Source: an uncultured Prevotellaceae bacterium
Lineage (GTDB): Bacteria; Bacteroidota; Bacteroidia; Bacteroidales; Bacteroidaceae
DNA: 64,000 nucleotides
Reading direction: 5' to 3'
Assembly (NCBI GenBank): GCA_902799905.1
Contig: CADCCB010000024.1
Location: 1 to 64,000, forward strand
The position numbers and the translations under genes are program-made. Positions within the stretch are counted from its first letter, which is position 1, and each line of letters starts with the position of its first letter. Positions 34,418 through 58,894 of this stretch are shown in pieces. The notes beneath the pieces were generated by a model. It was not told the DNA's origin and made no database searches. It was given only the letters and a program-made list of their open reading frames with translations.

Positions 34418-34425
34418 CAAAGATA
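34418..34425 (-). promoter_or_regulatory. -7 box of the SusA-like gene
   Basis: TATCTTTG on the minus strand, 24 bases before the ATG. No -33 TTTG at the usual distance, as expected if an activator is needed. The LacI-type operator is centred 66 bp upstream. Confidence 0.65.
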
Positions 34426-34481
34426 CACCTTTTCCGCTAAACCGTCACCCCTACTCCATCCACATTCGTCACTATGGCTAT

Positions 34482-34493
34482 GAAATCGTTTGC
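34482..34493. promoter_or_regulatory. LacI-family-type operator upstream of the SusA-like gene
   Basis: GAAATCGTTTGC, sharing AATCGTTTGC with the sites at 56178-56189 and 58819-58830. The central CG (34487/34488) is exactly 66.0 bp from the centre of the -7 box. Confidence 0.75.
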
Positions 34494-34520
34494 ATAAACG
34501 ACGCCCCAAATGACAATTAC

Positions 34521-34562
34521 AACAAAAAAAGTCCGCTGCAACTCTCACGAGCAACAGCGGAA
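34521..34562 (-). terminator. Terminator of the putative small RNA
   Basis: On the minus strand: TCCGCTG ... CAGCGGA stem, with a small internal mismatch region, followed by CTTTTTTTG. No coding frame with family resemblance ends here. Confidence 0.6.
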
Positions 34563-34762
34563 CAAGCCTATGTTTAACTAAAAATCCTTTTTCCAAAAGA
34601 AATTTTCAGTCCACAAGGACTAAAAATTTGAAAGTTTAAAAGGGTGTTTCACAACAACCTCCTGTTATCCTACAGTTGAAAACTTTCTTTTTTACCAATA
34701 ACTAAAAACCTAAAACTATAAATATTACTACTAACCTAAAACAATCTCTGAATCTTTTTGAC
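34524..34762 (-). ncRNA. Putative small RNA of about 240 bases upstream of the SusA-like gene
   Basis: Bounded by a promoter (34767-34797) and a terminator (34521-34562), both on the minus strand. It contains a 12-bp hairpin (arms 34601-34612 and 34617-34628, loop of four) and an AGGAGG five bases before a GTG that opens an 11-codon frame (MKHPFKLSNF), so a tiny peptide or leader is possible. No known RNA family is recognised. Confidence 0.4.
34601..34628 (-). other. 12-bp hairpin inside the putative small RNA
   Basis: AATTTTCAGTCC / GGACTAAAAATT with loop ACAA (plus-strand text). The single mismatch becomes a G-U pair in the minus-strand RNA. Confidence 0.7.
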
Positions 34763-34766
34763 GATG

Positions 34767-34797
34767 CAAAGGTACGACGATTTTCTGAATTGCGCAA
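34767..34797 (-). promoter_or_regulatory. Promoter without a protein gene (putative small RNA)
   Basis: TACCTTTG (complement of 34767-34774), 20 bp, TTG (complement of 34795-34797). Confidence 0.6.
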
Positions 34798-35036
34798 TAC
34801 TTTTGCTTGAATAAATATCAAAAATCGCCTCATTCTTGATGCAAATCAAGCCATTGTGCCCGCAAACACGCAAAAAAGCACAATTCTTTGTTTACCCTGT
34901 CCGTTTTTCAGTATAGCGAAGCGTCGCTCGGCCCTTGGGACGCTTTCTCAAAGCAAAGCGACTGAAAGAACGGTGTTTTTGCTTTCATTGATTTCAATGC
35001 ATGGAATGCTGCGTGTGGTGATAGTGACGGCTGCTT

Positions 35037-35190
35037 TAAGGAACATAAATCTACATAAATGGTACATAAATAATTTTTTCTTCAGTCCCTGTATCTTTAA
35101 GGACAAAAATCTACAATAATCTAACAAAAATAATATCCATCAGGCAATCACAGAAAGATTTATGATAGATTCATGAAGATTTATGTCCTT
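35037..35190. repeat. Three related copies of a 36-base module (two direct, one inverted)
   Basis: Copy A 35037-35073 and copy B 35099-35134 on the plus strand, copy C 35154-35190 on the minus strand. All start AAGGA(A)CA and share AAATCT followed by CAT/AAT and ATAAAT or AAAAAT blocks. The stretch between 34395 and 36007 has no convincing protein gene. Confidence 0.65.
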
Positions 35191-35261
35191 TACAACCACG
35201 GGGACAGCGGCCCTCTGGCAAAGGATTGTTCCTCTGAGTTGAAGAGATATAGCCTTTAAAA

Positions 35262-35280
35262 GTAAAACAACTTGTTTTAC
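35262..35280. repeat. 19-bp perfect palindrome, copy 1
   Basis: GTAAAACAA-C-TTGTTTTAC. The second copy starts exactly 66 bases further on. Confidence 0.85.
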
Positions 35281-35327
35281 CTTCGTTAAGATGCCTTCTA
35301 ACACAGTAAGGAATGCCTGTTTCAAAG

Positions 35328-35346
35328 GTAAAACAACTTGTTTTAC
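35328..35346. repeat. 19-bp perfect palindrome, copy 2
   Basis: Identical to 35262-35280. Could be a dimer-binding site; no adjacent regulator gene is obvious. Confidence 0.85.
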
Positions 35347-35351
35347 TGTGA

Positions 35352-35406
35352 ATGAAGTCATTATGAGGTCAATATGATGTCGTTATGATGTTAATATGAT
35401 GTCATC
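35352..35406 (+). repeat. Five tandem 11-base repeats (ATGATGTCATT type)
   Basis: ATGAAGTCATT, ATGAGGTCAAT, ATGATGTCGTT, ATGATGTTAAT, ATGATGTCATC, without interruption. One more ATGATGTCAAA lies at about 35449. The 11-base period keeps each copy on nearly the same face of the helix. Confidence 0.85.
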
Positions 35407-35533
35407 GTAGCACTTAACTAACTGGTTATAAACAGGTTAAAAGCAATTATGATGTCAAATAAAAAAATGATGTTCAAAAAAAAACGGAATTGAAGATAGC
35501 CTTGCATCCCTATGGTTGCAGAGATGAACCATA

Positions 35534-35677
35534 CTTTGTATAAAGGTAGTCTGCGACTTTGTCAAACTAACCATTCACTCGGAAATGAGAAGAAAAACGA
35601 GTTTTCCTTTTGCATTTCTCTCGTTTTTTCGTAACTTTGTAAGAATTCTCAGCTTTTCTTTGTATAAAGACAGTCTG
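35534..35677 (+). repeat. Pair of 20-base direct repeats, CTTTGTATAAAGnnAGTCTG
   Basis: Copies 35534-35553 and 35658-35677, 124 bases apart, differing at two positions. A strong promoter-like sequence lies between them. Confidence 0.75.
35609..35639 (+). promoter_or_regulatory. Promoter without an evident gene
   Basis: TTTG (35609-35612), 19 bp, TAACTTTG (35632-35639). It shares TCGTTTTTTCGTAACTTT (35621-35638) with 42369-42386. No convincing frame follows before the RhuM gene (convergent), so it may be a remnant or drive a non-coding RNA. Confidence 0.5.
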
Positions 35678-36007
35678 GGAGATTGAGGAAAATCTGGGTT
35701 ACGAATAGGCAACCGTACTCAATTCCGCATTCTGCTATAAACTGCATCCGCTCGAGTTATGCTCGCTTGCTACCAACGGGACGCAAGAAAGAACACCTGA
35801 CGCTGAGCCACCAGCCGTTTTATAACTCATCATCGGATGCAAAGGTAATCATTCTTTCTGAAAGAACCAAATCTACTCACACATTTTTCTTTTGAGCTTG
35901 CTCCTCGCTCACTAAGCAGATTGCGGCATCTTTTGTGGCACCTGCCAGAAAAGTGCGTATTAGGCTACGTCCTTCTACCGTAATGATATGTTTTATACAG
36001 AAATCAC

Positions 36008-37033: not shown

Positions 37034-37122
37034 ATTATATAACCTTTTTGTTCTTGCAGCTCTATTGTTTGATGAAAATGGATTAGGGGATACCCCATAA
37101 TTCCGTTGCTATCGTATGCAGA

Positions 37123-37222
37123 AATTAGCCGATAATCGGATGAGTATTTATAACTTCTGGTTTGTGACAAATCATTAATAATCAAAGCAATACACCTTTT
37201 ATCAGCTAAATATCGGCTAATT
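37123..37222. repeat. 12-bp inverted repeat between the RhuM and ATPase genes
   Basis: AATTAGCCGATA at 37123-37134 and its complement at 37211-37222. The right arm contains the stop codon of the ATPase gene (37217-37219). The region between is AT-rich, without a gene. Confidence 0.6.
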
Positions 37223-39206: not shown

Positions 39207-39261
39207 ATCTTATGCTATTTGTCTTTATAAAGTTTCTGTTCCATATATCTCATTTCGTTTG

Positions 39262-39291
39262 CAAAGTTACTGATTTTCAAAAACAATCAAA
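39262..39291 (-). promoter_or_regulatory. Promoter of the DUF4062-ATPase pair
   Basis: TAACTTTG (complement of 39262-39269), 18 bp, TTTG (complement of 39288-39291). Confidence 0.7.
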
Positions 39292-39319
39292 AATACTACT
39301 CCCTTAATTTAATTTGTTA

Positions 39320-41885: not shown

Positions 41886-41930
41886 AGTTTTTGCGCTTTT
41901 AACTAACTATTATTATGTTTTTTCACCTTC

Positions 41931-45083: not shown

Positions 45084-46161
45084 ATGCCTTGAGTGCGGGC
45101 ATGGCCTTGCCCGTCTTGTTGTCGAAGAGTCCGCGGTTCAGCCACCCGTCAGTGACACTGTTCTGATAGCCGTTTTCCTCTGGGTACCACCAGAACACGC
45201 CAGTTACGTTTTCGTGTTTTTTCAGTTCTTTCATCAGTTCGCGCGTGAACTGCTTCTGCCCCTTAGGCGAGATGGGATAAAACTCAGAATATTGTCCTGG
45301 CTTGGCCCAAGGGTCACGTTCATGGGAATAGTAGGCCGCCGTCTCAACAATCATCACAGGCTTGTCGGGGTACATCTCCTGCAGACGGTTGAGCGTCACG
45401 CCTAAGTTAGGAATTGACTTGTGCCACATGGGATAGTAACTCAGTCCGATGATGTCGTAATCTACATCATACTGGCGAAGATGTCCGTAGTAGGACTCCG
45501 TGATATCCCAGTTGCCGGCCTTCTCAGTATGGATGATGATCTTGGACTGCGGGCAGACCTCACGACAGGCACGACAACCAGCCTTCAGGAATGCGCAGAG
45601 CACATCCCACCCCTCATCCTTCGTCGGATCAATCTTGCCAGTAGGCCACAACATGCCATTGGTAATCTCATTGCCCACCTGAATCAGTTCCGGCTCGGCA
45701 TTGACGGCTTTCAGAGCCAGCAGCGAACGGCGCGTATGCTCATAGACGCTGTCAGCCAACACGTCCTTGTCACCATGTTCCCAGTCTTTGGGCGTGAATT
45801 GCTTACCTGGATCTGCCCATGTATCACTATAGTGGAAGTCGAGCATCAATTGATAGCCAGCCTCCTTGATACGACGACTCAGACGGAGCACATAGTCCAA
45901 GTCCTGACAGACGCCCTCGCCCTTGCTGAAGTCAGAGGCCAGAGCAGGATTGACGAAGAGCCTCACCCGCATGGCGTTCCACCCGCACTCCTTCAGGAAA
46001 GGCAGCACTTCGACCTGACGGCCATGCTCATCTTTATATACAGCACCTGCCTCTTCATAGGAGGGAAGAAACGAAATGTCGCCACCCAGCAGGCGTTTCT
46101 GCTGGGCAGCGACAGTAGTGGCGAGGCAGCACAGGACTGCCAGGACTATGGTTCTTATCAT
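45073..46161 (-). CDS. Arabinogalactan endo-beta-1,4-galactanase, family GH53
   Basis: 362 residues with a signal peptide (MIRTIVLAVLCCLATTVAAQ). Hydrolyses beta-1,4-galactan of pectin side chains. TIM-barrel motifs: GGDISFLPSYEEAG, NAMRVRLFVNP, LDFHYSDTWADPGKQ, the acid/base Glu in IQVGNEITNGMLWP and the nucleophile Glu in PVMIVETAAYY. The ATG overlaps the stop of the amylase gene upstream (ATGA, 46158-46161), so it is translationally coupled to a starch enzyme, which is unexpected for a galactanase. Confidence 0.93.
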   Translation of the reverse strand: MIRTIVLAVLCCLATTVAAQQKRLLGGDISFLPSYEEAGAVYKDEHGRQVEVLPFLKECGWNAMRVRLFVNPALASDFSKGEGVCQDLDYVLRLSRRIKEAGYQLMLDFHYSDTWADPGKQFTPKDWEHGDKDVLADSVYEHTRRSLLALKAVNAEPELIQVGNEITNGMLWPTGKIDPTKDEGWDVLCAFLKAGCRACREVCPQSKIIIHTEKAGNWDITESYYGHLRQYDVDYDIIGLSYYPMWHKSIPNLGVTLNRLQEMYPDKPVMIVETAAYYSHERDPWAKPGQYSEFYPISPKGQKQFTRELMKELKKHENVTGVFWWYPEENGYQNSVTDGWLNRGLFDNKTGKAMPALKAFTF

Positions 46162-48182
46162 CTGATAACCACCTTTTTATTATTAATAATGTATACTCCA
46201 GCCTTGGGCTGACTGACCCTACGACCCTGCAAATCGTAAATGGTTGAGATTTGAGGTTTGAGGTTTGAGGTTTGAGGCGTCACGATACCTGTGACCACGC
46301 CCTTCTGCCCGTCCTTGGTGTAGTAACCGCCATTGGTGAATGGCAGGTCGGCAGTCTGACTCGATCCGTTGTTAAAGATAATGTTGTCAGGGGCCGTCGT
46401 CTTTGTCGACGTCCACTTGAACACCCTATTGCCATTGTCAGCCGTTCCCAGCAGCGTAGCACGGACGCCAGGCCACCCAGTGCCCACATAGTTACTTCCA
46501 TCGCCACCGTTCATCCAAGCCCAAACATTGATCTGGCTGCCCCATGAGACAGGTGCCTCGAAGAAGGCGCATATCTCTCCATCATTAATGGTACAGAAAG
46601 ACGGGATAACGACATCCTGCTGCTCCTGCTTTTTCTTCACCACGAGAGTGCGGCTTACGATACCGCTCACCTGACCGTTAATGAGCAGGCCCACCTTCAG
46701 GGTGGTGGTACCAACGGGAATGGTGATGGTGGTACCGCTGGCCACCTTGGTGCTTGAAGCGGTGGGATTCTCTCCATCGGTGGTGTACACCAACTGGGCA
46801 CCTGCTGTTGCCGTTACGGCTGTGAGCAGGGCCTTCTGTTCACCTGTATAGGTGCTCGAAGGCAGGTCAACGTATGCCGTGTTCAGCGACGAGGGCAGGT
46901 AATAAGCGTAATGGTAACCACTGAGCACCTTCGTCCAGTCGGATGCCTTCACCTTAGTATCTACTGTGGCGATGTTACCCACAGCCACCAACAGACGGTT
47001 CTCGTTGTTACTCTTAATGGTAGCGGAGTAGTAGGCTGAGGCAGAGTAAAGTCCCGAATAAGTGCTCTCGTTGTGAATGCCCGCAAACTTACGTGCAGCC
47101 ACCATCGTCTTGATCTCGGTGGGATAAGCCAGCCAGTGAGTGAGGAAGACGCAGGGCGTGCCAGGCATGGCCAGCAGGTAGGCATTGGCTGCCAGCGTAT
47201 CTTTCTTCAGCGGGTCCTGAGCAGCATTAGGACGCTTCTCCGTGTCATGGTTCTCTACGAAAGTCACGGCATAGCGGCGATAGGCTCCATTCTCATAGTT
47301 GCTACTTACGAGCGGCCAGTTGTTATCGTTCTGTGCAGAAAGTTTAGTCCATGTGCCGTTATTGGCAGCATTACGCACGGTATAGCGGAACTGGAAGTCG
47401 AAGGCGGCACTCTGAATAGTGCCATTCACCTTCGTGCCGTCAATCCATCGGCGTATAGTCTCTGTACCGTCCCAACACTCGCCCACGGAGAACTCAGGTG
47501 CCGAAGCAGTATTATACATGCCAGTGAACGAGGCCGAATAGCCTTTCACCATGTCATAGCGGAAACCGGCATAGCCCAGGTCGTTCTTCAGGAAATCGAG
47601 GTAGGCCTTGACGATGGTCTGCACGTTCTCGCTCTTATGATCAAGGTCGCGCATGCCGTCCCATCCTTCGCCTGAGTCGGTATTGGAACTGAGCGTATAG
47701 CCATTCTGTGAAGCCCATGTCTTCGTCTTGCCGCCATCATCATTGGAAACCACATCGGTGGACTTCATTTCATAAGTCACCCCATTATAGGTCTCTCTGG
47801 GGAAGACCACCCAGTTAGAGAGTTCCTTGCGGTGGTTGATGACCACGTCGGCAATGGTCTTGATGCCTTTCTGCTTGAAGGTGGTGATGAGCGAGCGCAG
47901 TTCCTCTTCGTTACCGAAAGAACTGTTGTAGTTTTCGAACCAATAGAGGTCATCATAACCCATCGACGTACCTCCACAGTTGCCACTCTGTGGCAACCAC
48001 ACCAAGTCGAAGGTGCCTGCCAGATGGTCGCTCTGCTGCTCAAGCACAATCCACTGAGAGTCTTCGAAGCCGTCCCAGTAGAAGCCCTGCAGCATGACAC
48101 CGCCATATTGTGCCGGCCATCCCTGTGCCGACATGGTAATCACTGCAAAGAGTGAAAATAGAGAAGTAATAATTCTTTTCAT
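46158..48182 (-). CDS. Secreted GH13 alpha-amylase with C-terminal binding modules and sorting-type tail
   Basis: 674 residues. Signal peptide MKRIITSLFSLFAVITMSAQ. GH13 barrel: TIADVVINHR, GFRYDMVKGYS (nucleophile Asp), FSVGECWDGT (acid Glu), FVENHDTEKR. Then a CHB_HEX-type segment (LVYTTDGENPTASSTKV), a CBM26-like starch module (QINVWAWMNGGDGSNYVGTGWPG), and a T9SS-like tail (IYDLQGRRVSQPKAGVYI). A GGTTTGA heptamer array encodes TPQTSNLKPQIST just before the tail, as in the M6 protease. Coupled to GH53 downstream and following susF in the operon. Confidence 0.93.
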   Translation of the reverse strand: MKRIITSLFSLFAVITMSAQGWPAQYGGVMLQGFYWDGFEDSQWIVLEQQSDHLAGTFDLVWLPQSGNCGGTSMGYDDLYWFENYNSSFGNEEELRSLITTFKQKGIKTIADVVINHRKELSNWVVFPRETYNGVTYEMKSTDVVSNDDGGKTKTWASQNGYTLSSNTDSGEGWDGMRDLDHKSENVQTIVKAYLDFLKNDLGYAGFRYDMVKGYSASFTGMYNTASAPEFSVGECWDGTETIRRWIDGTKVNGTIQSAAFDFQFRYTVRNAANNGTWTKLSAQNDNNWPLVSSNYENGAYRRYAVTFVENHDTEKRPNAAQDPLKKDTLAANAYLLAMPGTPCVFLTHWLAYPTEIKTMVAARKFAGIHNESTYSGLYSASAYYSATIKSNNENRLLVAVGNIATVDTKVKASDWTKVLSGYHYAYYLPSSLNTAYVDLPSSTYTGEQKALLTAVTATAGAQLVYTTDGENPTASSTKVASGTTITIPVGTTTLKVGLLINGQVSGIVSRTLVVKKKQEQQDVVIPSFCTINDGEICAFFEAPVSWGSQINVWAWMNGGDGSNYVGTGWPGVRATLLGTADNGNRVFKWTSTKTTAPDNIIFNNGSSQTADLPFTNGGYYTKDGQKGVVTGIVTPQTSNLKPQISTIYDLQGRRVSQPKAGVYIINNKKVVIR
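46241..46275 (+). repeat. GGTTTGA heptamer array inside the amylase gene
   Basis: TGGTTGA, GATTTGA, then three GGTTTGA. Encodes PQTSNLKPQIST between the binding module and the sorting-type tail. Confidence 0.9.
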
Positions 48183-48284: not shown

Positions 48285-50066
48285 CTATTGCTTCGTGATG
48301 ACAACGCGATTGCTGCCCTCGTAACTGATGTAGAGTTTGAACGTGTAAGTACCAGCCTCATCAACGATGATGTTGGCGCCATTGTTCTGGGTCAGGTCGT
48401 CATAGGCCTTGCCATTGCCGTTGCCACCCCAACTGATAGACCAGTCATGGTTCATACGGAACTTGAAGCCGTTGGTGTTCACTTCTGCCGAGCCTTCCCA
48501 GCAGCCTTCCTCGACATTGTAGGTCAGGTCTACATCGCCGCCCCATCCGTTGAAGTCGCCGATGACGCTGATGGTCTCCACCTTGGTCAGACTATAGGAC
48601 AGGTTACCTGCATCGAGGTTGATCTGATAGAAGCCTGCACCTGGATCGGGACAGTTGGGACCGCCACCATCGGTGAGCGAGCCGCTCATATTGTCACCGC
48701 TGACATACTCCAGGTCGTCGTTCCAGTTGTCGGCATTGGGCTTGAACTTAAACTCACCATTCAGGTAGTAGTAGCCCAGATACTTGCCGTCGCCTGCTCC
48801 ACCAAAGAGGGGATGTGAGGTGCCCCATCCAGATTCGCCACCGATCTCATAGAAATACTCGGCGAAGTTGAGCGGAGTGATGGTATAGGTCATCTCGGCC
48901 ATATTCACCTGGAAGCGGTAGAACTTAGCCAGACCGTCAACACAGAACGAGTGGTCGCCGTCAAGGTTGTAGCGGCGGTCGAACGAACCGCTGAGATCCT
49001 TGCTATCGCCCTTCGTGCCGAAGAGTTTGTTCCAAGTACCCTGTCCAACAGCCTCGATAGCCTCGTCGTCACCAAATGCGAACCACATATCGCCACCGTT
49101 ACCTGCGAAGACATAGGTGAAGACGGGATCGTCGACCACGCTCTTGTCGCTGTGAGAGAACTTCTGAGCCTTCGAGTCGTTCCAGTCACCAGGACCACCG
49201 ATGAGGTAGTAGTTCTCTGAGATATTCACAGGCTCGATAGTGTAGGCATAGTCCATCATGTCAATGGTCACCTTGATGAGTTTGTTGCCGGCAGGTACGC
49301 AGAACGAACCATCGTCATTCAGGTTGTAGCGGCGGTCGAGAGTACCTGTCAGGTCGGTATTGCCGTTGCCCTTGGTAGTTCCAAAGAGTTTCGACCAGTC
49401 ATTGTCGTTAGCGATAGCCTCACAGGCCTCGTCGTCGCCGATGGCAAACCAAGTGTCGCCCTCGTTGGCATTGATGACGATAGTGAAGATGGGATCCTCA
49501 TACACGTCCTTGCCGCTGTGCGAGAACTTCTGAGACTTGTTCTTAGCCGACTCACCCCAGTCCTGAGGACCACCCACGAGGTAGTAGTTCTCCGAGATCT
49601 GAGGAGCCTCTGGCGTGAGGTTCAACTTGATAGTGCCTGCGTCGATGAGCACAGCCTGTCCGTTCTTCACGGCATTGCAGTAGACATGGGCATCGAACAC
49701 ACGATTCACAGGGCGCTTGCCGTATGCCTTCTCGATGATAGCCTGAATTTCGCTCTTCGAGAACGTACCATTCTCGTCGGCTGTGAGTGTCACAGTCTCT
49801 TCACCCACGGGAATCTCCAGACGGATGTTCTGAATGGTGAAACCCTCGGGCAGGGCCGACTGGCTCAAAGCCAGTAGTGAGATAGCGTCGCCAGCAGTGT
49901 TCAGGTCGACGGCACCGGTTGCAGAGGCGGTATAGCCGGGAATGCTGACAGCGTCCTCGCCTGTGGGCTGTGCCGGCTGTGCAGCCCAGTCGGTGTAGTC
50001 TTCTGTGCAGGCCGTGAAGAACAGGCCTGCCAGAACGACTGACATAATATATGATATCTTTTTCAT
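48285..50066 (-). CDS. susF: SusF-like starch-binding surface lipoprotein
   Basis: 593 residues with lipoprotein signal MKKISYIMSVVLAGLFFTAC (Cys20). An N-terminal SusE/F domain (about 35-150) is followed by two close tandem repeats, residues 157-281 and 282-400 (both beginning ISENYYL(V/I)GGP and containing FAxGDDEA and DRRYNL), a third, more divergent copy (about 401-505) and a final SVIGDFNGWGGD domain. These are CBM-like modules that hold starch on the cell surface. Fourth gene of the sus operon, 23 bases after susE. Confidence 0.88.
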   Translation of the reverse strand: MKKISYIMSVVLAGLFFTACTEDYTDWAAQPAQPTGEDAVSIPGYTASATGAVDLNTAGDAISLLALSQSALPEGFTIQNIRLEIPVGEETVTLTADENGTFSKSEIQAIIEKAYGKRPVNRVFDAHVYCNAVKNGQAVLIDAGTIKLNLTPEAPQISENYYLVGGPQDWGESAKNKSQKFSHSGKDVYEDPIFTIVINANEGDTWFAIGDDEACEAIANDNDWSKLFGTTKGNGNTDLTGTLDRRYNLNDDGSFCVPAGNKLIKVTIDMMDYAYTIEPVNISENYYLIGGPGDWNDSKAQKFSHSDKSVVDDPVFTYVFAGNGGDMWFAFGDDEAIEAVGQGTWNKLFGTKGDSKDLSGSFDRRYNLDGDHSFCVDGLAKFYRFQVNMAEMTYTITPLNFAEYFYEIGGESGWGTSHPLFGGAGDGKYLGYYYLNGEFKFKPNADNWNDDLEYVSGDNMSGSLTDGGGPNCPDPGAGFYQINLDAGNLSYSLTKVETISVIGDFNGWGGDVDLTYNVEEGCWEGSAEVNTNGFKFRMNHDWSISWGGNGNGKAYDDLTQNNGANIIVDEAGTYTFKLYISYEGSNRVVITKQ

Positions 50067-50089: not shown

Positions 50090-51265
50090 TTATTTGATTT
50101 CACCAGTACCCTTGGCAAAGTTAAGGTAAACCTTCTGACCAGCAGTACCTTCCACACGCTCCTGGTCGTCACCAGTGCCACGGAAGACAATCTTGTTGTC
50201 AAGCACGATAAACTCAGACTTCCACCAGTCGTAGCCAGGCACCTTGACATAGAAGCGTACACCGCCGTCGCCGGACGAATCATGAGAGAATGCAGGTGAT
50301 ACGAACTCACCGTCGGCAGTTTCAGGAATAGAGAACAGGCGGTTGTCGTCGGCCTCATCCTCAGCCCAAGCAGCATCAGGAGTGACAGTACCCATCAGAC
50401 GGATAGCAGCCTGGTTGAAGGTCACGTTGTACTTCACGTCGCGACCAGAGATGCTGGCAGTGACAATCATCAGGTACCACTTCGGTGAGTTGGAGGCGAT
50501 GTTGCCGTCACCGTTCTGGATCTCGCCAGCCAGGTCGCCGTCGATGGTGATATCGGCAAAGCCCTGCTCACCGCCGTCCCAGTCCTTGGCACTGTTGAAC
50601 TTAATACCAGAATCGTCAATGTATACCAGACTCCAGTAGACGTCGCTCTGGTTCTTGCCATCACGGGCACCCCATACGCGCTGCATCTGGAAGCACTTAT
50701 CGCTATCCCAACTCCAGCCACAGAAGTTACCAGTGATATAGAGGTTCTCAGGCACATTCACAGGAGGCAATGAGAATACGAGGTGAACCTTCTTCAGAGA
50801 CACCACATTCGACACTACCTCGGTCGACTCTAAAGCCGAGCCACCGGCATTGATGGCGGCACGTACACGCAGGTAGACGGGAATAACCATGGGGAAGTCT
50901 GCCTCCAGTTTACCCTGCTCCACCTCCATGGTGGTGAGGATGCTGGCCAACTCTGCGGCATCGATGGTCATCTTCGGCTCACCGAAGGTCTGCGACAGGG
51001 TCTTGGCATTGCTCATGTTCTGATCGGTGGACACCTCCACGGAATAGGTCTTCAATACGGGGAAGCCATAGTCAGGATAGGTGCACACGAGGTTGATGCC
51101 CGAAGAGTTAGCCAAGTCGATGTCAGTCTCAGCAAGAGCGGGCGTGAACAGTTCGATGGATGCGGGCACCTTGACGGTGGGATTCGAATCGTTGTCGTCT
51201 GAACAGGCGGCAAAGACGAATGCACCACAAGCGAGCAGTAATGCTGACTTAAATATCTTTTTCAT
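50090..51265 (-). CDS. susE: SusE-like outer-membrane starch-binding lipoprotein
   Basis: 391 residues. Lipoprotein signal MKKIFKSALLLACGAFVFAACSDD (Cys21). N-terminal SusE domain (VPASIELFTPALAETDIDLANSSGINLVC), then a binding module ENLYITGNFCGWSWDSDKCFQMQ and a C-terminal one. Third gene of the operon, 36 bases after susD and 23 before susF. Function by family: surface starch binding with SusF. Individual sugar-binding residues are not assigned. Confidence 0.86.
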   Translation of the reverse strand: MKKIFKSALLLACGAFVFAACSDDNDSNPTVKVPASIELFTPALAETDIDLANSSGINLVCTYPDYGFPVLKTYSVEVSTDQNMSNAKTLSQTFGEPKMTIDAAELASILTTMEVEQGKLEADFPMVIPVYLRVRAAINAGGSALESTEVVSNVVSLKKVHLVFSLPPVNVPENLYITGNFCGWSWDSDKCFQMQRVWGARDGKNQSDVYWSLVYIDDSGIKFNSAKDWDGGEQGFADITIDGDLAGEIQNGDGNIASNSPKWYLMIVTASISGRDVKYNVTFNQAAIRLMGTVTPDAAWAEDEADDNRLFSIPETADGEFVSPAFSHDSSGDGGVRFYVKVPGYDWWKSEFIVLDNKIVFRGTGDDQERVEGTAGQKVYLNFAKGTGEIK

Positions 51266-51301
51266 CTTATTATCTTTTTTACCGTTTTACTTGTTTTCTT
51301 C

Positions 51302-52939
51302 TTAGTAGCCAGGGTTCTGCTTGATATTGCCCTTCACCTGCTCTGCAGGAATGGCAAAGATATTCTTATCAGCAGTAAACTGGCGGCCTTCTTTCAAACC
51401 ACCCTTCCAGGTCCATTTGAAGTTATTGTCGCCACCAAACTTGTTGTAGCGAATCAGGTCTACACGGCGGCGGCCTTCGAAGTAGAACTCATGCTGCCAC
51501 TCGTCAAGGATATCATCAGTGGTGTAGGCAGTCTTCGTGGTGGTGTTAGCACGCTCGCGCAGGTCGTTCAGGTATTTCACACCTTCAGCAGTGGCCTGGT
51601 TGCCGTTCAGACGGGCAGTGGCTTCTGCATAGGTGATATAAGCCTCTGGCAGACGGAACAGGAAGAAGTCGGCATCGGGGAAGGTAGCGTCGCTACCTGC
51701 AGAACCGTCGGTCTTGAAGTTGGTGAACTTAGCCACGGCATAGCCGTCCTTGAAATCACCAGCATAGCCTTTTACGTTGTCAAGGGAGCGGGGATCAGGT
51801 TCCTTATCTTTCTCACCATAACTGCAGAACAAGGCACGATCGTCGCCAGCAGCGTCCTTCATGTCGTATGCCTGTGCACACTGCACTTCAGAAGGAACTC
51901 CATTCGGGAAGAACTTCAGAACCAAGTCTTTGCGTGCACGGTTACCACCCCAGTTCTGGCCTGTACCATTGGTGGCTACGCCATCGTTGGGATTGCTGTG
52001 CATATCAGCATCATAAGTACTGGCAATAACATAGAGTGAGGTAGCCCAACTGGTGGTGGTCAGACCGTCGCAGAGGATGGGGAAGATAGCCTCGTAGGCA
52101 GCATCCGTCTCGCCATTGTCGCCCATGAACAGCATCTGGTAGGCACTCCAGCCATTCTTACCTTCCGTGTTCAGACGGTAGTCGGAGTCTATCACCTTCT
52201 TGGCATAGGTGGCGGCATCCTGCCAGCGTGCCTCACCAGTGTAGACCTCAGCGTTCAGGTAGAGACGAGCCAGCAACATCCAAGCAGCAGCCTTGTCCAC
52301 ACGGCCATAGTTGGCATCGCTCGACTTCTTAGCCTTGGCTTCGCTCAGGTCAGCCTCGCACTCCTTCAACTCCTTCTCGATCCAAGCGAAGGCATCCTTA
52401 CGACTGATTTGCTCAGGCTCGGTGAGGGTCGTAGCGAAGGGGATATTGCCGAAGGCATCCATCAACATATAGTAGTGCAGGGCGCGGATGTATCGGATCT
52501 CAGCCGTCATCGTGGCGTTGTTGCCGCCAGCAATCTCCAGATAGTGGTTACAATAGGAGATACCTGTGGTCAGACGGGCGTAGTAACCATTGAGCATCGG
52601 GTGGCTGGCATCCCACGTGTTGTAGCAGAACTGCTCGATACCATCGTCACCCCAACTGCAGATAGCCTCGTCGGTGGTCAGTTCGTTTGAATTCCACAAC
52701 TGACGGATGAAGCCAGAGGTACCGCCGTCGAGACCGTCGATGTCGCAGTCGCCATTGGCTCCACCGTTACCAGGCAGGCCAATATTAGCATAGCACTTGT
52801 TGAACAGACCGTTGATGTTGACCTCAGTGTCCAGATTGGGGTTGATGGGGGTCACGTCCAGGTCTTTCGTGCATGAAGTCATACCGAGTGCCAGTGTGAG
52901 TGCTGTTATCGGAATGATATTTTTTATAATATGTTTCAT
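51302..52939 (-). CDS. susD: SusD-like starch-binding outer-membrane lipoprotein
   Basis: 545 residues. Lipoprotein signal MKHIIKNIIPITALTLALGMTSCTKD (Cys23). Characteristic SusD regions: TPINPNLDTEVNINGLFNKCYANIGL, then RALHYYMLMDAFGNIPFAT (TPR helix with the conserved pattern), AWMLLARLYLNAEVYTG, LPEAYITYAEATARLNG and a C-terminal FEGRRRVDLIRY. Acts as a lid over SusC and binds malto-oligosaccharides. Second gene of the operon, 22 bases after susC. Confidence 0.95.
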   Translation of the reverse strand: MKHIIKNIIPITALTLALGMTSCTKDLDVTPINPNLDTEVNINGLFNKCYANIGLPGNGGANGDCDIDGLDGGTSGFIRQLWNSNELTTDEAICSWGDDGIEQFCYNTWDASHPMLNGYYARLTTGISYCNHYLEIAGGNNATMTAEIRYIRALHYYMLMDAFGNIPFATTLTEPEQISRKDAFAWIEKELKECEADLSEAKAKKSSDANYGRVDKAAAWMLLARLYLNAEVYTGEARWQDAATYAKKVIDSDYRLNTEGKNGWSAYQMLFMGDNGETDAAYEAIFPILCDGLTTTSWATSLYVIASTYDADMHSNPNDGVATNGTGQNWGGNRARKDLVLKFFPNGVPSEVQCAQAYDMKDAAGDDRALFCSYGEKDKEPDPRSLDNVKGYAGDFKDGYAVAKFTNFKTDGSAGSDATFPDADFFLFRLPEAYITYAEATARLNGNQATAEGVKYLNDLRERANTTTKTAYTTDDILDEWQHEFYFEGRRRVDLIRYNKFGGDNNFKWTWKGGLKEGRQFTADKNIFAIPAEQVKGNIKQNPGY

Positions 52940-52961
52940 ATTCTATACTCCTTATTTATAT

Positions 52962-55900
52962 TTAGAAATTCAGGTTAAGACCCATAATGAATGAGATGGG
53001 ACGCGGATACATCTCGTTGTCATAGCCACTGAACACCTCGGGGTCGAGGCCCTTGTACTTAGTGATGGTGAAGACATTAGAGACGGTAGCATAGACACGG
53101 CCGTTGATGCCCTTGTACTTCTCGCCAGCCAGGAACTTGTCGAACGAGTAGCCCAGCGTGATGTTGTCGCACTTCAGGAACGAGGCATTGTGTACGTAAC
53201 GGTCTGAGAGTTGAGCGGTGAGGGTATAGGTCTGCCAGCCATCCTCCACCGACCTCACTGGACGGTTGGAGAGGTAGTTCGATGATGACCATACCTCATT
53301 GGGCTGTACGTTAGCCTGGCCAGACTCGATGTTGTTGAACACATAGTTGCCAAGGCTTGCACGCAGTGAGAAGCCGAAGTCGATGTTCTTGTACTCCAGA
53401 CGTGAACTGAGACCCATCGTCACAGGAGCAGCGGGGCTCTTGTAGAAGTAGCGGTCGGAGTTGGTAATCTGTCCGTCACCGTCACGGTCTACAACCACGT
53501 TCTCGAGGGCTTTGCCATTCTCATCGTATGCCTGCTGGAACACCCAGAAGGAGTTAGCGGGATGGCCCACCTGATGGTATTCCAGATACTTGTCAGTACC
53601 AATCTTGATGCCAGTGTTAGGGATGGGCGAACCATCGGCTGTGGCACCAGTCAGGTCTGTAATCTCGTTCTTGTTGTAAGTGATGTTGTAGTCAATCTGC
53701 CAGAACCAGTCTTTGGTCTGGATGGCCTTGATACCGATGCTACCTTCCACACCAGTGTTCTTCAGCGAACCGATGTTCTGCCATGCCTGGTTACGATAAG
53801 CCGAGAGGGCTACGGTGGGCGAATAGTTCAGCAGGTCGGTAGTCTTACGATAGTAGTAGTCCACACCCAGGGTGAGACGCTGGTTGAAGAAGCCCAGGTC
53901 GAGACCTACGTTATAGGTCGTGGTGGTCTCCCACTTCAGGTCGGGCGTATAGTTATCAGGACGATAGAGCACGCCCTGCTTGCCATCGACGTCGAGCAGA
54001 GGATAGAAACCGTTGGTACCAGTGCTCATCGAGTAGGTGGGAATCCAAGCATAGTCGTTGTTCACGTCCTGCTGACCGGTCTTACCCCAACCCAGACGCA
54101 ACTTAGCATCGCTCAGCCATTCAACGTTCTTCATGAAGCCCTCCTGGTTGATGCGCCATGCAAGAGCCACAGAGGGGAACAGCGACCAGCGGTTGTCCTT
54201 GTGGAAGCGTGACGATCCGTCGTTACGCAGAGTAGCGGTGAGCATGTAGCGCTCCATGAGCGTGTAGTTCATACGTCCGAACCACGACACAAGATAGTTC
54301 TCAGTCTTGAATACATAAGGTGTATGGGGATATTCCTCACCTGCCTTGGTAGCGTTGGTAGAGGGATAAGTGCCCACATAGTCGTTATACTGCGAACGCC
54401 AAAAGCGCTGCCACTCGTAACCACCCATGATATCGAAGTGGTGGTTCTCGTTGAAGTCCTTATAGTACTGTGCGTAGGCCGAGAGTGACAGGTTACGCTT
54501 GGTAATGGTCTCAGAACCGTTGGATCCGAAGTAGATAAACTGCGGTGAGGCCGATGTAGCAGAGCGATACTGAGTACCCTTGGAGATATCAGCACCCAGG
54601 GTCACATGCAAGCGGAGATCCTCAAAGCCGTGGATCTTATAGTCAATGTCGGCACTGCCGATGAAAGAACGGCTGTGGGCTGACTCTGAACGCTCGTCGA
54701 GGATAGCCAGTGGGTTCTTCGTAGCCAGGTTGTTGTAGGTGTAGGGCCAAGCAGGGTCTCCATAAGCACCAGCCTGAGGCCATTCAAAGTAACCGCCAAA
54801 GTTTTGCAGTGTGCTGGCTTCGAGGGCACCCAGCAGATTCTTATGATACTGCGAAGTATAGGCATAGGGATCCTGAGTGGGGTCCATTCGGAAAGCAGAG
54901 CCCACGGCCTCACCGTCGGCATAGACAGTGTGGGCATACATGCCCTTGGCGTTGAGGTTCATCGTCAGGTGGTCGTCAAGCAGCGAGGGGTTCAGGTTCA
55001 CCGAAGCGGTATAACGACTGAAATCACCAGTACGCAGTGTACCTTCCTGGTCGGTATAGCCCAGCGAGATGCGGTAGGGCAGATTCTTCAGAGAACCAGT
55101 CAGCGTCACATTGTGGTCGTTAGACAGGGCGGTACGGTAGATCAGGTCCTGCCAGTCGGTATTGGCTGTTCCCATGGCGTTGTAAGCATCGCTACCCTCG
55201 CCCCAGATGTCGCGGATAAATGCGCGATACTGGTCACCATCCATCACGTCGAGGGTGTTCTTGTTCTTACTGATGGTCACGCTAGCACTATACGAAAGTT
55301 GTGGAGCCTGACCCTTGCGGCCTTTCTTCGTGTTGATGATGATAACACCGTTAGAACCACGGCTACCATAGATAGCGGTGGCAGAGGCGTCTTTCAGCAC
55401 GTTGAACGACTCGATGTCCTGTGGGTTGATGGTCGAGAGGAGGTTAGCCACACCCTTCACACCATTGTTGTCCATAGGCACACCATCGATCACGATAAGA
55501 GGATCATTGCTGGCGTTCAGTGACGAGCCACCACGGATACGGATGTTCATCTTACCACCAGGGGTACCGTCGTCAGAGACAACGCTCACACCGGCAATCT
55601 TACCCTGCATCATGTCCTGAGGGTTCACCACGACGCCCTTGTTCTTCGTGTCGGGCTTCAGGGCGGTCACAGAACCGGTCAAGTCACTCTTCTTGGCAAC
55701 GCCATAACCGATGACCACTACGTCATTCAGCACGGTGGCATCTTCCTGAAGAGTCACAACAACACTGGGAGCGGCCTTCACCGTAGCAGCCTGATAACCC
55801 ATGTAGGTCACTTGGAGGTCGGCTCCCTGATTGGCTTGTACGGTGAAGTTACCATCAAAGTCGGTCAACGCAGCGGTCTGGGTACCCAACACGCGAACGG

Positions 55901-56042
55901 TAGCGCCGATGATAGCCTCACCTGTAGCATCTTTCACATGGCCTTTAACAGTAATCTGTGCAAAGGCTCCTACCGACAGGAACAGACAGGCCACGAGTGC
56001 CATCAACCTGAACGGTAATCTAATGTTTACCTGCTTCATCAT
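52962..56042 (-). CDS. susC: SusC-like TonB-dependent starch oligosaccharide transporter
   Basis: 1026 residues. Signal peptide (MALVACLFLSVGAFAQ), a carboxypeptidase D-like domain (ITVKGHVKDATGEAIIGATVRVLGT), then the SusC plug (DVVVIGYGVAKKSDLTGSV, KDASATAIYGSRGSNGVIIINTKKG) and a barrel ending in SFIMGLNLNF. Imports malto-oligosaccharides across the outer membrane with SusD, driven by TonB. First gene of a six-gene operon; -7 box at 56114-56121 and operator at 56178-56189. Confidence 0.97.
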   Translation of the reverse strand: MMKQVNIRLPFRLMALVACLFLSVGAFAQITVKGHVKDATGEAIIGATVRVLGTQTAALTDFDGNFTVQANQGADLQVTYMGYQAATVKAAPSVVVTLQEDATVLNDVVVIGYGVAKKSDLTGSVTALKPDTKNKGVVVNPQDMMQGKIAGVSVVSDDGTPGGKMNIRIRGGSSLNASNDPLIVIDGVPMDNNGVKGVANLLSTINPQDIESFNVLKDASATAIYGSRGSNGVIIINTKKGRKGQAPQLSYSASVTISKNKNTLDVMDGDQYRAFIRDIWGEGSDAYNAMGTANTDWQDLIYRTALSNDHNVTLTGSLKNLPYRISLGYTDQEGTLRTGDFSRYTASVNLNPSLLDDHLTMNLNAKGMYAHTVYADGEAVGSAFRMDPTQDPYAYTSQYHKNLLGALEASTLQNFGGYFEWPQAGAYGDPAWPYTYNNLATKNPLAILDERSESAHSRSFIGSADIDYKIHGFEDLRLHVTLGADISKGTQYRSATSASPQFIYFGSNGSETITKRNLSLSAYAQYYKDFNENHHFDIMGGYEWQRFWRSQYNDYVGTYPSTNATKAGEEYPHTPYVFKTENYLVSWFGRMNYTLMERYMLTATLRNDGSSRFHKDNRWSLFPSVALAWRINQEGFMKNVEWLSDAKLRLGWGKTGQQDVNNDYAWIPTYSMSTGTNGFYPLLDVDGKQGVLYRPDNYTPDLKWETTTTYNVGLDLGFFNQRLTLGVDYYYRKTTDLLNYSPTVALSAYRNQAWQNIGSLKNTGVEGSIGIKAIQTKDWFWQIDYNITYNKNEITDLTGATADGSPIPNTGIKIGTDKYLEYHQVGHPANSFWVFQQAYDENGKALENVVVDRDGDGQITNSDRYFYKSPAAPVTMGLSSRLEYKNIDFGFSLRASLGNYVFNNIESGQANVQPNEVWSSSNYLSNRPVRSVEDGWQTYTLTAQLSDRYVHNASFLKCDNITLGYSFDKFLAGEKYKGINGRVYATVSNVFTITKYKGLDPEVFSGYDNEMYPRPISFIMGLNLNF

Positions 56043-56113
56043 TACATTTAATTAGGTTTAAAATTTAGTTAGTATTATTATTTGCAATTGGTTATATAGA
56101 CCTTCTTTCGGTG

Positions 56114-56121
56114 CAAAGGTA
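56114..56121 (-). promoter_or_regulatory. -7 box of the susC operon
   Basis: TACCTTTG on the minus strand. No -33 TTTG at 19-20 bp. Its centre is 66.0 bp from the operator centre. Predicted leader about 70 bases. Confidence 0.7.
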
Positions 56122-56177
56122 AGTTTTATTTACTCTCATTGTACTTTTTTTTTATAAAATTCGTTATCTATTCAAAT

Positions 56178-56189
56178 GCAATCGTTTGC
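56178..56189. promoter_or_regulatory. LacI-family-type operator shared by susC and the lacI-type gene
   Basis: GCAATCGTTTGC (central CG at 56183/56184) with one mismatch from perfect symmetry; flanks extend to TGCAATCGTTTGCA. Exactly 66.0 bp from the -7 box centres of both divergent promoters. Confidence 0.8.
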
Positions 56190-56245
56190 ATGCAACTCCT
56201 GTCAATAAAATGACTAAAGGAGACCTCTATAGAAAAAGTTTTGCC

Positions 56246-56253
56246 TAAATTTG
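56246..56253 (+). promoter_or_regulatory. -7 box of the LacI-type regulator gene
   Basis: TAAATTTG, about 28 bases before ATG 56281. Also 66.0 bp from the shared operator, so the regulator may control itself. Confidence 0.65.
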
Positions 56254-56280
56254 CATTGCAATCTAAAGGTCTGAAACCTA

Positions 56281-57306
56281 ATGAACGATAAGACGACGCT
56301 GACAATGAAGGACATAGCACGGGAACTTGGTGTTTCCGTCGCTACGGTATCGCGTGCATTGAAGGACTCGCCTCACATCTCGTCAGAGCAACGGGAGCGC
56401 ATCAAGCAGTATGCCCAAGAGCATCATTTCACTCCTAACACCATTGCCGAGTCATTGCGCCACAGTCGCGTTCAACCCATGAAGGTCATTGGCGTCATTG
56501 TACCGGAATTCGTACACTACTATTTCTCCACAATCCTCAAAGGTATCGAGGAGGAGGCCGAAGCCCACGGCTACCGCGTGATGGTAGCCCAGAGTGGCGA
56601 GCAATACGAACGTGAGGTTCGCCTCTGCCAGTCGTTCTATGAGAACAAGGTTTGCGGCATCATTGTCTCTCAGGCGAAGGACACCCATCACTATGAGCAC
56701 TTCCAGCGCCTCATTGATGCCGGCGTGCCGTTGGTCTTCTATGATAGAATATGTACGGGCGTGAACGCCAGCCGTGTGGTGGTCGATGACTATACGGGGG
56801 CTTTCAATGCGGTGGAATATCTGATCAGGACTGGTTGCAGGCGTATTGCCTACTATGGCTCCCAGATGAATCTGGAGATAGCGAAGAACCGCTTTAATGG
56901 TTATAAGGATGCCCTGCTGAAACATAGGCTGCCGTTTGATGAGTGTCTGACCCGCATCTGCGACAATCGTATGGATGCTGAGATCATCACCCCTGAACTG
57001 TTTGACGGCGACTACTACCCAGACGCCTTCTTCGCCGTAAACGACGACACGGCCATCGGCATCCTCCACGCGGTGAAGCGCATGGGGCTACGAGTTCCAG
57101 AAGACATCAGCATCTGCGGATTCACTAACGGCGACCGCGCCATGGCCTGCGACCCGATGCTGACCACCGTCGAGCAGCGTGGTGTCATGGTGGGTGAAGA
57201 GGCTGCCAGCATCCTCATCGGCCAGGTGGAGGGTACCATTCCCAAGGCCAAGACAGAGAGGCGCATCGTCCGTACCCGCCTCATTATTCGCGGAACGACA
57301 AGGTGA
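56281..57306 (+). CDS. LacI-family regulator of the starch locus
   Basis: 341 residues. N-terminal helix-turn-helix and hinge: TLTMKDIARELGVSVATVSRALKDSPHISSEQRERIKQYAQEHHFTPNTIAESLRHSR (about 6-63). A periplasmic-binding-protein-like effector domain follows (VIGVIVPEFVHYYFSTILKGIEEEA, then PDAFFAVNDDTAIGIL and ISICGFTNGDRAM). It probably senses a malto-oligosaccharide; the ligand is inferred from context. It takes the place of the SusR regulator of B. thetaiotaomicron, which is an unrelated family. Divergent from susC; the shared operator is its likely binding site. Confidence 0.93.
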   Translation: MNDKTTLTMKDIARELGVSVATVSRALKDSPHISSEQRERIKQYAQEHHFTPNTIAESLRHSRVQPMKVIGVIVPEFVHYYFSTILKGIEEEAEAHGYRVMVAQSGEQYEREVRLCQSFYENKVCGIIVSQAKDTHHYEHFQRLIDAGVPLVFYDRICTGVNASRVVVDDYTGAFNAVEYLIRTGCRRIAYYGSQMNLEIAKNRFNGYKDALLKHRLPFDECLTRICDNRMDAEIITPELFDGDYYPDAFFAVNDDTAIGILHAVKRMGLRVPEDISICGFTNGDRAMACDPMLTTVEQRGVMVGEEAASILIGQVEGTIPKAKTERRIVRTRLIIRGTTR

Positions 57307-57311
57307 GAATG

Positions 57312-57426
57312 CCCCCGGAGTCAGGGGGATGGAGGTCTGAACAAGCGCAGACATCCATATATTGAAATAATGTTTAGATGAGTCTGATGAACGCTTGTTC
57401 AGACCACCACCCCCTGACTCGGGGGG
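57312..57426. repeat. Long inverted repeat (MITE-like) between the regulator and transporter genes
   Basis: Arms 57312-57347 and 57392-57426. The inner 14 bases (GGTCTGAACAAGCG) and an 11-base GAGTCAGGGGG block are perfect, separated by a short mismatch. CAGAC/GTCTG (57348-57352, 57382-57386) extends the stem. The loop is AT-rich. It fills most of the 128-base gap and ends eight bases before the transporter ATG. Confidence 0.85.
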
Positions 57427-57434
57427 TCAACAAC

Positions 57435-58802
57435 ATGAAACAGAAACCGAATTTAAGTTTTTGGAAACTCTGGAACCTGAGTTTCGGATTCTTTGGAGTA
57501 CAGATAGCCTATGCACTCCAAAGCGCAAACATCTCTCGCATCTTCAGAACGCTGGGGGCAGACCCTCACGACCTGAGTTTCTTCTGGATACTGCCGCCCC
57601 TGATGGGCATTCTGGTACAGCCCATTGTGGGCACGTTCAGCGACAAGACATGGACGCGCTTCGGACGCCGTATACCTTATTTATTTATAGGAGCCGCCAT
57701 GGCCGTGGCCGTGATGTGCCTGCTGCCCAATGCAGGCTCACTGGGACTGCGCAACGTCACCTACGTGCTCATCTTCGGCCTCTTCGCCCTGATGCTGCTC
57801 GACACCAGCATCAACATGGCCATGCAGCCGTTTAAGATGATGGTGGGCGACATGGTGAACGAGGAGCAGAAAGCCAAAGCCTACAGCATCCAGTCGTTCC
57901 TGTGCAATGCAGGATCGGTGGTAGGATTCGTGTTCCCGTTCTTCTTTGCCTGGATTGGTCTGAAGAACGTAGCCCCTGATGGTGTCGTGCCCGACACCGT
58001 AGTTTGGTCGTTCTATATCGGAGCCATCATCCTAATTCTGTGCGTACTCTACACCACGCTGAAGGTGAAGGAGTGGCCGCCAAAGGAGTATGCGGAGTAC
58101 AACCCCTCTACGGCTCAGAAGGAGGAAAAGGCCAACTGGTTCACCCTGCTGAAGAATGCCCCCTCCACCTTCTGGACGGTCGGACTGGTACAGTTCTTCT
58201 GCTGGGCAGCCTTCCTCTACATGTGGACCTACGTGGTCGATGCTGTGTCTCTGACCGTATGGGGCACGGCTGACCCTAAGACCGAAGCCTATCAGGAGGC
58301 AGCCAACTGGACGGGCATACTCTATGCCGTTCAGGCTATGGGCAGCGTGGCATGGGCTACCATTCTGCCACGCTTCAAGAACCGCAAGATGGCCTATGCG
58401 TCCAGTCTGGTACTAGGCGGCTGGGGCTTTGCCCTCATCCCCTTCTTCCACTTCAGTTTCCCCGTATCAGTTGTCGATGCACCTACTGGCGAGGCATTCA
58501 TGATGGTCATCCAGGCCCAATACCTGCAGTTCATCCCCTTCCTCCTCATCGGCTGTGCTTGGGCTGCGATGCTGGCCATGCCGTTCACCTTCGTCACCAA
58601 CGCCTTGCAGGGCTACGGTCACATGGGAGCCTATCTGGGACTGTTCAACGGCACTATCTGCCTGCCGCAGATTGTCGCCGCCCTCTGTGGAGGCACCATT
58701 CTCCACTGGGTGGGCAGCGATCAGGGGCACATGATGTATGTGGCTGGAGGATTGCTCGTAGCAGGTGCCTTGAGCGTTTCCCTGATCAAGGCATCCAAAT
58801 GA
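57435..58802 (+). CDS. MFS sugar transporter, SLC45/maltose-type
   Basis: 455 residues from ATG 57435 (MKQKPNLSFWKLWNLSFGFFGVQIAYALQ); an upstream in-frame ATG (57378) would place 19 residues inside the inverted-repeat arm. Twelve membrane segments. FGFFGVQIAYALQSANISRIF and VGTFSDKTWTRFGRRIPYLF are typical of the SLC45/sucrose-maltose symporter group. It likely carries maltose or malto-oligosaccharides from periplasm to cytoplasm, where 4-alpha-glucanotransferase acts on them. Transcription from the regulator promoter through the hairpin is probable. Confidence 0.9.
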   Translation: MKQKPNLSFWKLWNLSFGFFGVQIAYALQSANISRIFRTLGADPHDLSFFWILPPLMGILVQPIVGTFSDKTWTRFGRRIPYLFIGAAMAVAVMCLLPNAGSLGLRNVTYVLIFGLFALMLLDTSINMAMQPFKMMVGDMVNEEQKAKAYSIQSFLCNAGSVVGFVFPFFFAWIGLKNVAPDGVVPDTVVWSFYIGAIILILCVLYTTLKVKEWPPKEYAEYNPSTAQKEEKANWFTLLKNAPSTFWTVGLVQFFCWAAFLYMWTYVVDAVSLTVWGTADPKTEAYQEAANWTGILYAVQAMGSVAWATILPRFKNRKMAYASSLVLGGWGFALIPFFHFSFPVSVVDAPTGEAFMMVIQAQYLQFIPFLLIGCAWAAMLAMPFTFVTNALQGYGHMGAYLGLFNGTICLPQIVAALCGGTILHWVGSDQGHMMYVAGGLLVAGALSVSLIKASK

Positions 58803-58818
58803 AGCACCAGTAGGGTGT

Positions 58819-58830
58819 GCAATCGTTTGC
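58819..58830. promoter_or_regulatory. LacI-family-type operator upstream of malQ
   Basis: GCAATCGTTTGC, identical to the site at 56178-56189. Its centre (58824/58825) is exactly 66.0 bp from the malQ -7 box centre. Confidence 0.8.
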
Positions 58831-58886
58831 GCAGTTAGCAAGACCGAAAGTAAGTCACAGGAGATGACTATATGACAAAAATATCG

Positions 58887-58894
58887 TACTTTTG
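58887..58894 (+). promoter_or_regulatory. -7 box of malQ
   Basis: TACTTTTG, predicting a leader of about 43 bases to ATG 58941. No -33 TTTG at the usual place. Confidence 0.65.

Follow-up and report, generated by a model that had tools for sequence, protein, structure and literature searches.

A LacI-family protein as a probable activator of starch genes from a fixed distance upstream of the -7 box in Prevotellaceae

We analysed a 64,000-nucleotide stretch of DNA from an uncultured Prevotellaceae bacterium (the window: assembly GCA_902799905.1, contig CADCCB010000024.1, positions 1 to 64,000), which holds a starch locus and, within it, a gene for a LacI/GalR-family regulator of 341 amino acids (56281..57306, + strand). 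With a probability of roughly 0.85, this protein binds a palindromic operator of consensus TGCAAWCGWTTGCA and activates the starch genes at promoters without a -33 box. We read it as an activator because of the conserved distance of 65-67 base pairs (bp) between operator and -7 box, the depletion of the -33 element, the co-occurrence of the motif with the LacI-type gene, the starch-type genes beside sites elsewhere in the genomes, and a second register occupied by related operators. The initial annotation of the window had already favoured activation over the mode of a classical LacI-type repressor, and comparative tests support that proposal, the sign of regulation being read from sequence alone.

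The operator core AATCGTTTGC lies at 34484-34493, 56180-56189 and 58821-58830, as part of a longer palindrome, GCAAWCGWTTGC, which is exact at 56178 and 58819 and carries one mismatch at 34482. Pattern searches placed the elements as follows. The SusA-like gene of glycoside hydrolase (GH) family 13 has the operator GAAATCGTTTGC (34482..34493, unstranded, one mismatch to GCAAWCGWTTGC, centre 34487.5) and the -7 box TATCTTTG (34418..34425, - strand, centre 34421.5). A single operator, GCAATCGTTTGC (56178..56189, unstranded), lies 66.0 bp from both the susC box TACCTTTG (56114..56121, - strand, centre 56117.5) and the lacI box TAAATTTG (56246..56253, + strand, centre 56249.5), and because these two genes have it in common, three operators suffice for four promoters. 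The fourth, that of malQ, combines the operator GCAATCGTTTGC (58819..58830, unstranded) with the box TACTTTTG (58887..58894, + strand, centre 58890.5). On re-measuring, the coordinates and the distance of 66.0 bp that had been given for the SusA-like GH13 gene, susC, lacI and malQ were all correct. The four -7 boxes fit TAnnTTTG, as had been claimed, and also the stricter TAHHTTTG, which excerpts of PMC6847099 give as the consensus of an element numbered T-12 to G-5. In that numbering the operator centre falls at -74.5 for a spacing of 66 bp and at -73.5 for 65 bp. A clear -33 box had been denied to susC, the SusA-like gene and malQ; this stands, and lacI lacks one as well, since none of the four window promoters contains a TTG in the stretch from -39 to -6, counted from the start of the box.

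A composite pattern (operator, 56 bp, TANNTTTG) was then scanned against the 3.42-megabase assembly. Three matches were exact, one had a single mismatch and five had three, and no match had two; at up to two mismatches only the four promoters named in the initial annotation were returned. The reversed control pattern gave seven matches in the same assembly at up to three mismatches. The operator alone was dropped as evidence, with 10 window matches at up to two mismatches against 9.03 expected.

The spacing was found to be conserved in relatives. A first set comprised the window and the lacI loci of 54 relatives, spanning 11 genera of the family including the window's own, with orthologs taken at E < 1e-100 and 50-83 % identical; a second set comprised 80 named lacI loci, mostly of Prevotella or Prevotellaceae, with one locus common to both. 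Around the 81 exact operators of the first set, boxes lay at 65 bp (51), 66 bp (46) and 67 bp (8), over a background mean of 0.205 per spacing within 200 bp (60-70 excluded; top other value 8, at -14). The 126 operators of the second set gave 77, 74 and 14 boxes at 65, 66 and 67 bp, respectively, over a mean of 0.17 (top other value 6). The claim of exactly 66 bp thus holds in this genome and gives way, across relatives, to 65 or 66 bp and sometimes 67 bp. Altogether, 182 of 207 operators from the 134 relatives' lacI loci and the window have an exact box at 65-67 bp, and in a further 18 the box at that distance has a single mismatch. When the 65-67 bp interval was shifted to seven other places, 0 to 3 of the 207 operators had an exact box. 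Six scrambled palindromes, run on the second set, gave three sites altogether and none with a box at 65-67 bp. These counts bear on the idea that common TAnnTTTG words happened to align with repeats of one operator. TANNTTTG is indeed frequent, with 48 occurrences in the window when both strands are counted; the counts at 65 and 66 bp, however, so far exceed the background of 0.17-0.2 pairs per spacing that chance is statistically excluded, and we regard its probability as negligible.

Boxes flank the operator on both sides in 88 of the 182 cases. The genes that follow the 105 first-set pairs at 65-67 bp are susC (44), lacI (43), malQ (7), susG (4) and GH97 (1), with six unassigned. Of the 15 loci that lack an exact pair, ten carry, at 64-67 bp, an operator with one mismatch; the sole candidate in L173 has three mismatches, and nothing was seen in L062, L204, L208 and L217. 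A phylum-wide rule was rejected, as 395 genomes of the phylum yielded 19 pairs outside the family with no peak at 65-66 bp. Six of these 19 fell at 55-56 bp (hand count, p 0.0009); a peak there beyond the order was likewise abandoned, since a class search with a related word (247 genomes) placed just one of its 17 pairs from beyond the order at 55-56 bp. Because matches outside the family in that search were about as frequent as those of the reversed control, we make no claim for 55-56 bp beyond the family. The same search returned spacings of 64, 66 and 64 bp in G1006, from another family of the same order.

The core promoters were compared after near-identical sequences (at least 85 %) had been dropped, which left 114 promoters at 65 bp and 112 at 66 bp; the controls were 185 boxes of the form TAnnTTTG, drawn from these loci, that precede different long reading frames and lack an operator-like core. 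A TTG starting at -26 to -20 from the box start, taken as the -33 element, was present in 24 of the 226 starch promoters versus 82 of the 185 controls (p 6e-15). By this sequence proxy the core promoters appear weak, as in class I-type activation, and the operator occupies a fixed distance upstream of the -33/-35 region on one helix face, as class I-type sites do. From -40 to -36 from the box start, the AT fraction was 0.86 and 0.93 in the two starch sets compared with 0.79 in controls. An UP element as a specific feature was weakened, control promoters carrying an A/T tract at the same place.

The regulator scores as a LacI/GalR-family member with PF00356 (57 bits, cut-off 27) and PF13377 (113.4 bits, cut-off 26.5), and the predicted site TGCAAWCGWTTGCA is a CpG-centred palindrome, as is characteristic of operators of that family. 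We looked for the regulator and the motif together in 301 genomes of the family, taking orthologs at E < 1e-100 and the composite at any spacing of 51-81 bp. The ortholog was present in 55 genomes (19 of the 22 sampled from the genus, 36 of the 279 from elsewhere in the family), and the composite motif in 52 of those 55 versus 9 of the 246 without it (Fisher p 5e-45); the reversed pattern matched four times in the 301 genomes. Of the nine genomes with a composite and no ortholog, four have it only outside 65-67 bp (52, 55, 72 and 78 bp) and two, G018 and G207, at 65 and 66 bp, spacings being listed for six of the nine. The link between palindrome and LacI protein is predicted from sequence, which leaves room for another factor that binds the palindrome next to a merely adjacent lacI. 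Given the co-occurrence, the position of the operator within the lacI-susC divergent region, and the resemblance of the CpG-centred palindrome to the CcpA cre consensus TGAAARCGYTWWCA given in excerpts of PMC3463425, we consider such a factor very unlikely.

Sites away from the locus were followed in 20 regions, chosen by hand among the listed matches outside the fetched lacI regions. Most have a spacing of 65-66 bp, one of 63 and one of 64, and at least two lie within 20 kilobases (kb) of lacI. A starch-type gene is next in 15 of the 20: GH97 in five, GH13 in five (one of them 343 bp from the box), GH77 in three and a SusC-type gene in two. The remaining five comprise one GH28 gene, one gene without a family and three sites without a clear gene. 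The spacing at these sites also bears on classical repression, by blocking or by looping between the three window operators. Several copies of one operator in a locus, and the habit of the family, would suit such a protein; yet the window operators, at about -74, overlap neither start nor promoter in any of the four cases (0 of 4), looping would need phase between operators and not a fixed distance to every -7 box, and the off-locus sites keep to 63-66 bp. We judge blocking or looping extremely unlikely.

Related operators occupy a second register, one helical turn closer to the box. In 120 genomes of the genus, the related word CGYAAACGTTTRCG gave 108 matches at spacings of 51-81 bp and none in the reversed control. 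By hand count, 53 of them lie at 53-56 bp (2, 12, 34 and 5 at 53, 54, 55 and 56 bp, respectively) and 48 at 63-67 bp (1, 15, 10, 18 and 4 at 63, 64, 65, 66 and 67 bp), which together make 101 of 108; the rest are at 58, 60 and 61 bp (two each) and 76 bp (one). The full starch word GCAAACGTTTGC occurs in 25 of the 48 matches at 63-67 bp versus 3 of the 53 at 53-56 bp; without these 28 carriers, 50 matches remain at 53-56 bp, 23 at 63-67 bp and 7 elsewhere. A protein that has to face the polymerase from one side of the helix would be expected to give narrow peaks separated by about 10 bp, as seen here. The main paralog group is 35-39 % identical to the window regulator. CpG-centred palindromes were also sought de novo in 56 loci of other LacI-type genes (60 fetched, four orthologs of the starch regulator removed). 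With an average of 0.475 pairs per spacing, there were six at 55 bp and three at 56 bp; pairs also occurred at 28 and 29 bp (five at each) and at 50 bp (three), and many loci had no pair. With such other spacings and empty loci, a universal activator role of LacI paralogs is not claimed.

The pairs at 28-29 bp are mainly the same operators viewed from the regulator's own promoter. At nine loci (L230, L231, L236, L240, L241, L244, L247, L253 and L257), the paralog operator lies 28-29 bp from the box facing its own gene, with its centre near -37. This is a repressor-like position and suggests negative autoregulation of the paralog; because the own-gene operator lies there, 55 and 65 bp can be argued to be activator positions.

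On the other side of many of these operators we observed a small-RNA-like element. It follows the -7 box under a LacI-type operator in 31 instances (L230, L231, L233, L236, L240, L241, L247 and L257, with 16 of L302-L321, 3 of L322-L331 and 4 of L332-L341), 28 of them with 53-56 bp and three with 64 bp between operator and box, and lies divergently in 7 of the 9 own-gene loci (not L244 or L253). Its near-invariant word GAGTAATGAATAGTTGATAATAAGTTAGTTAG, exact in 29 of 31, lies 17-95 nucleotides after the box start (19-27 in 26 of 31) and is followed, by eye, by a variable paired hairpin and a T-run. Searched against Rfam at the gathering score, with four of the loci and with one, the element matched no family, and in the one-locus search matches under E 1 were far below their cut-offs; in the window's own genome GAGTAATGAATAGTTGATAATAAGTTAGTTAG has no match at up to three mismatches. 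Another paralog group (L225, L226, L227, L229, L232, L234, L235, L237, L238 and L239) has palindromes such as ACGTAAACCGTTACGT or ACGCAAACCTTTGCGT, 55-56 bp from the box in the three loci with at least 7 of 8 positions paired (L234, L235 and L237); the divergent gene that follows is presumably an aldo/keto reductase. Promoters of the 64-bp class of CGYAAACGTTTRCG (L322-L331, 10 sequences) have a T-tract soon after the operator; near the -33 position they also show a TTTG-like word, which sets them apart from the starch class. A broader scheme, which we put at about even odds, is that Bacteroidales of this family use LacI-type activators at quantised positions near -63.5 and -74, without a -33 box: the starch clade would act from -74. 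In one paralog clade a single operator would serve both to activate a highly conserved small RNA from -63.5 and to repress the regulator's own gene from about -37, distance alone setting the sign.

Several observations weigh against activation by the starch regulator or narrow its reach. For seven of the 207 operators, no box is present at 65-67 bp even when one mismatch is allowed. In 27 box-operator pairs, an extra TAnnTTTG box lies upstream of the starch operator at 11-34 bp (those listed being 11, 14, 15 and 34 bp; loci L060, L064, L066, L074, L088-L091, L098-L100, L102, L144, L160, L172, L175, L176, L178, L181, L182, L184, L191, L202 and L206); these could be second promoters that bound LacI, near or past the start, would block or repress. 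The A/T tract is common in controls too, WWWW at -40 being found in a fraction of 0.50 there and of 0.53 and 0.79 in the starch sets, and it is poor near -50 at the SusA-like and malQ promoters of the window. The CGYAAACGTTTRCG matches at 63-67 bp that carry GCAAACGTTTGC are probably the starch regulator again, so that this peak is only partly separate. Outside the order, no 65-66 bp peak was seen with these operator words. Finally, a repressor of the contact type might in principle use such a fixed geometry too, holding RNA polymerase in an inactive complex from its upstream site until it leaves when the sugar appears. A constant distance implies contact with the polymerase without telling whether the effect is positive or negative; repressors make up most of the LacI family, and GalR at galP1 forms an inactive RNA polymerase complex from an upstream site. 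We nevertheless consider this unlikely, as the -33 depletion suits promoters in need of help and not of restraint, and the paralog operator facing its own gene lies at a different, promoter-overlapping distance of 28-29 bp.

Activation remains our preferred reading, and from these observations we infer binding, activation, contact with the polymerase and a starch-derived effector such as maltose. The LacI-family protein would bind the CpG-centred palindrome with its centre about 74 bp upstream of the start, and RNA polymerase, offered a good -7 but no -33 box, would need the bound regulator. Most likely the two would touch in a class-I-like manner, for example with the alpha C-terminal domains seated on an A/T tract near -50. 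A single dimer on the palindrome shared by susC and lacI would activate both divergent promoters, and with them the sus operon and the regulator's own gene; the regulator would also serve malQ-GH97 and the SusA-like gene 22 kb off. Its ligand is probably maltose-like, and it probably fills the role of SusR, the membrane activator of Bacteroides thetaiotaomicron.

The starch locus itself is laid out as follows (Pfam assignments unless stated). On the - strand lie the SusA-like GH13 gene (32433..34394; alpha-amylase domain with cyclomaltodextrinase N and C domains), a GH13 alpha-amylase domain protein in the SusG position (46158..48182, domain search), a SusF-like protein with a SusF_N domain (48285..50066), a SusE-like protein with SusE and SusF_SusE domains (50090..51265), a SusD family protein (51302..52939) that matches Pfam SusD_RagB and stays under the NCBIfam SusD cut-off, and a SusC/RagA family TonB-linked outer membrane protein (52962..56042, Pfam and NCBIfam). 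The regulator (LacI helix-turn-helix and periplasmic-binding-protein-like domains, Pfam and NCBIfam) opens the + strand part, followed by a major facilitator superfamily sugar transporter (57378..58802), MalQ, a GH77 4-alpha-glucanotransferase with a family 20 carbohydrate-binding module, CBM20 (58941..61355), and a SusB-like GH97 family gene (61438..63669). The transporter is possibly in one operon with lacI (71-bp gap), and the GH97 gene possibly in one with malQ (82-bp gap). The SusA-like protein, sought in three genomes, had a full-length match in its own genome only. Among named relatives, those nearest to the regulator come mainly from Prevotella or Prevotellaceae. The fold of the regulator is not in doubt; its top profile matches among solved structures are CcpA proteins, and the cut-off of the NCBIfam ccpA equivalog was not reached (148.6 versus 442.35 bits).

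Starch uptake is the model case of glycan use in gut Bacteroidota, and accounts of it usually feature SusR. A regulator such as this one would, by its family name, pass for a repressor. Should it prove to be an activator bound to a strict geometry, then sequence would suffice to list its regulon almost free of background, and distance may predict the sign of regulation. Prevotella genetics would gain a pair of activator and promoter, and there would be a clean test of how the unusual Bacteroidota polymerase accepts class-I activators.

Among known systems, OsuR of Bacteroides fragilis was reportedly described by Spence et al. in 2006 as a maltose-responsive activator of the osu starch operon. 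According to excerpts of PMC3878776, SusR of B. thetaiotaomicron activates susA and susBCDEFG and is a membrane protein with a direct-repeat motif and a long spacer. The present system would likewise activate starch genes; it differs in having a LacI-family protein and, at the window sites, a palindrome instead of such a repeat. Excerpts of PMC11633381 assign a LacI-type regulator, but not SusR, to the sus loci of B. fragilis and B. uniformis, which agrees with the proposed mechanism. MdxR of Enterococcus faecium, also of the LacI family, is required for maltodextrin gene expression and targets the uptake genes mdxABCD-pulA; it comes from a Firmicute, has those other targets, and the available text gives no site geometry (PMC3737153, in excerpt). 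CcpA activates ackA, pta and ilvB from cre boxes upstream of -35 in a helix-face-dependent manner (PMC3463425, in excerpt). It shares with the window regulator the LacI/GalR family, the upstream-site activation proposed here and the best structural matches, and differs as a global protein, mostly a repressor, that works with HPr, compared with a local starch regulon at one strict distance here. Class I promoters of CRP in Escherichia coli have sites at -61.5 and -71.5, one turn apart, with contact to the alpha C-terminal domain. The two sites one helical turn apart are alike; CRP is unrelated, and here the registers are near -63.5 and -74 and polymerase contact is predicted. A literature search, with its sources seen in excerpt, found no description of this spacing or of so tight a geometry with two registers. 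LacI-family activators are already known; the strict geometry is the new part.

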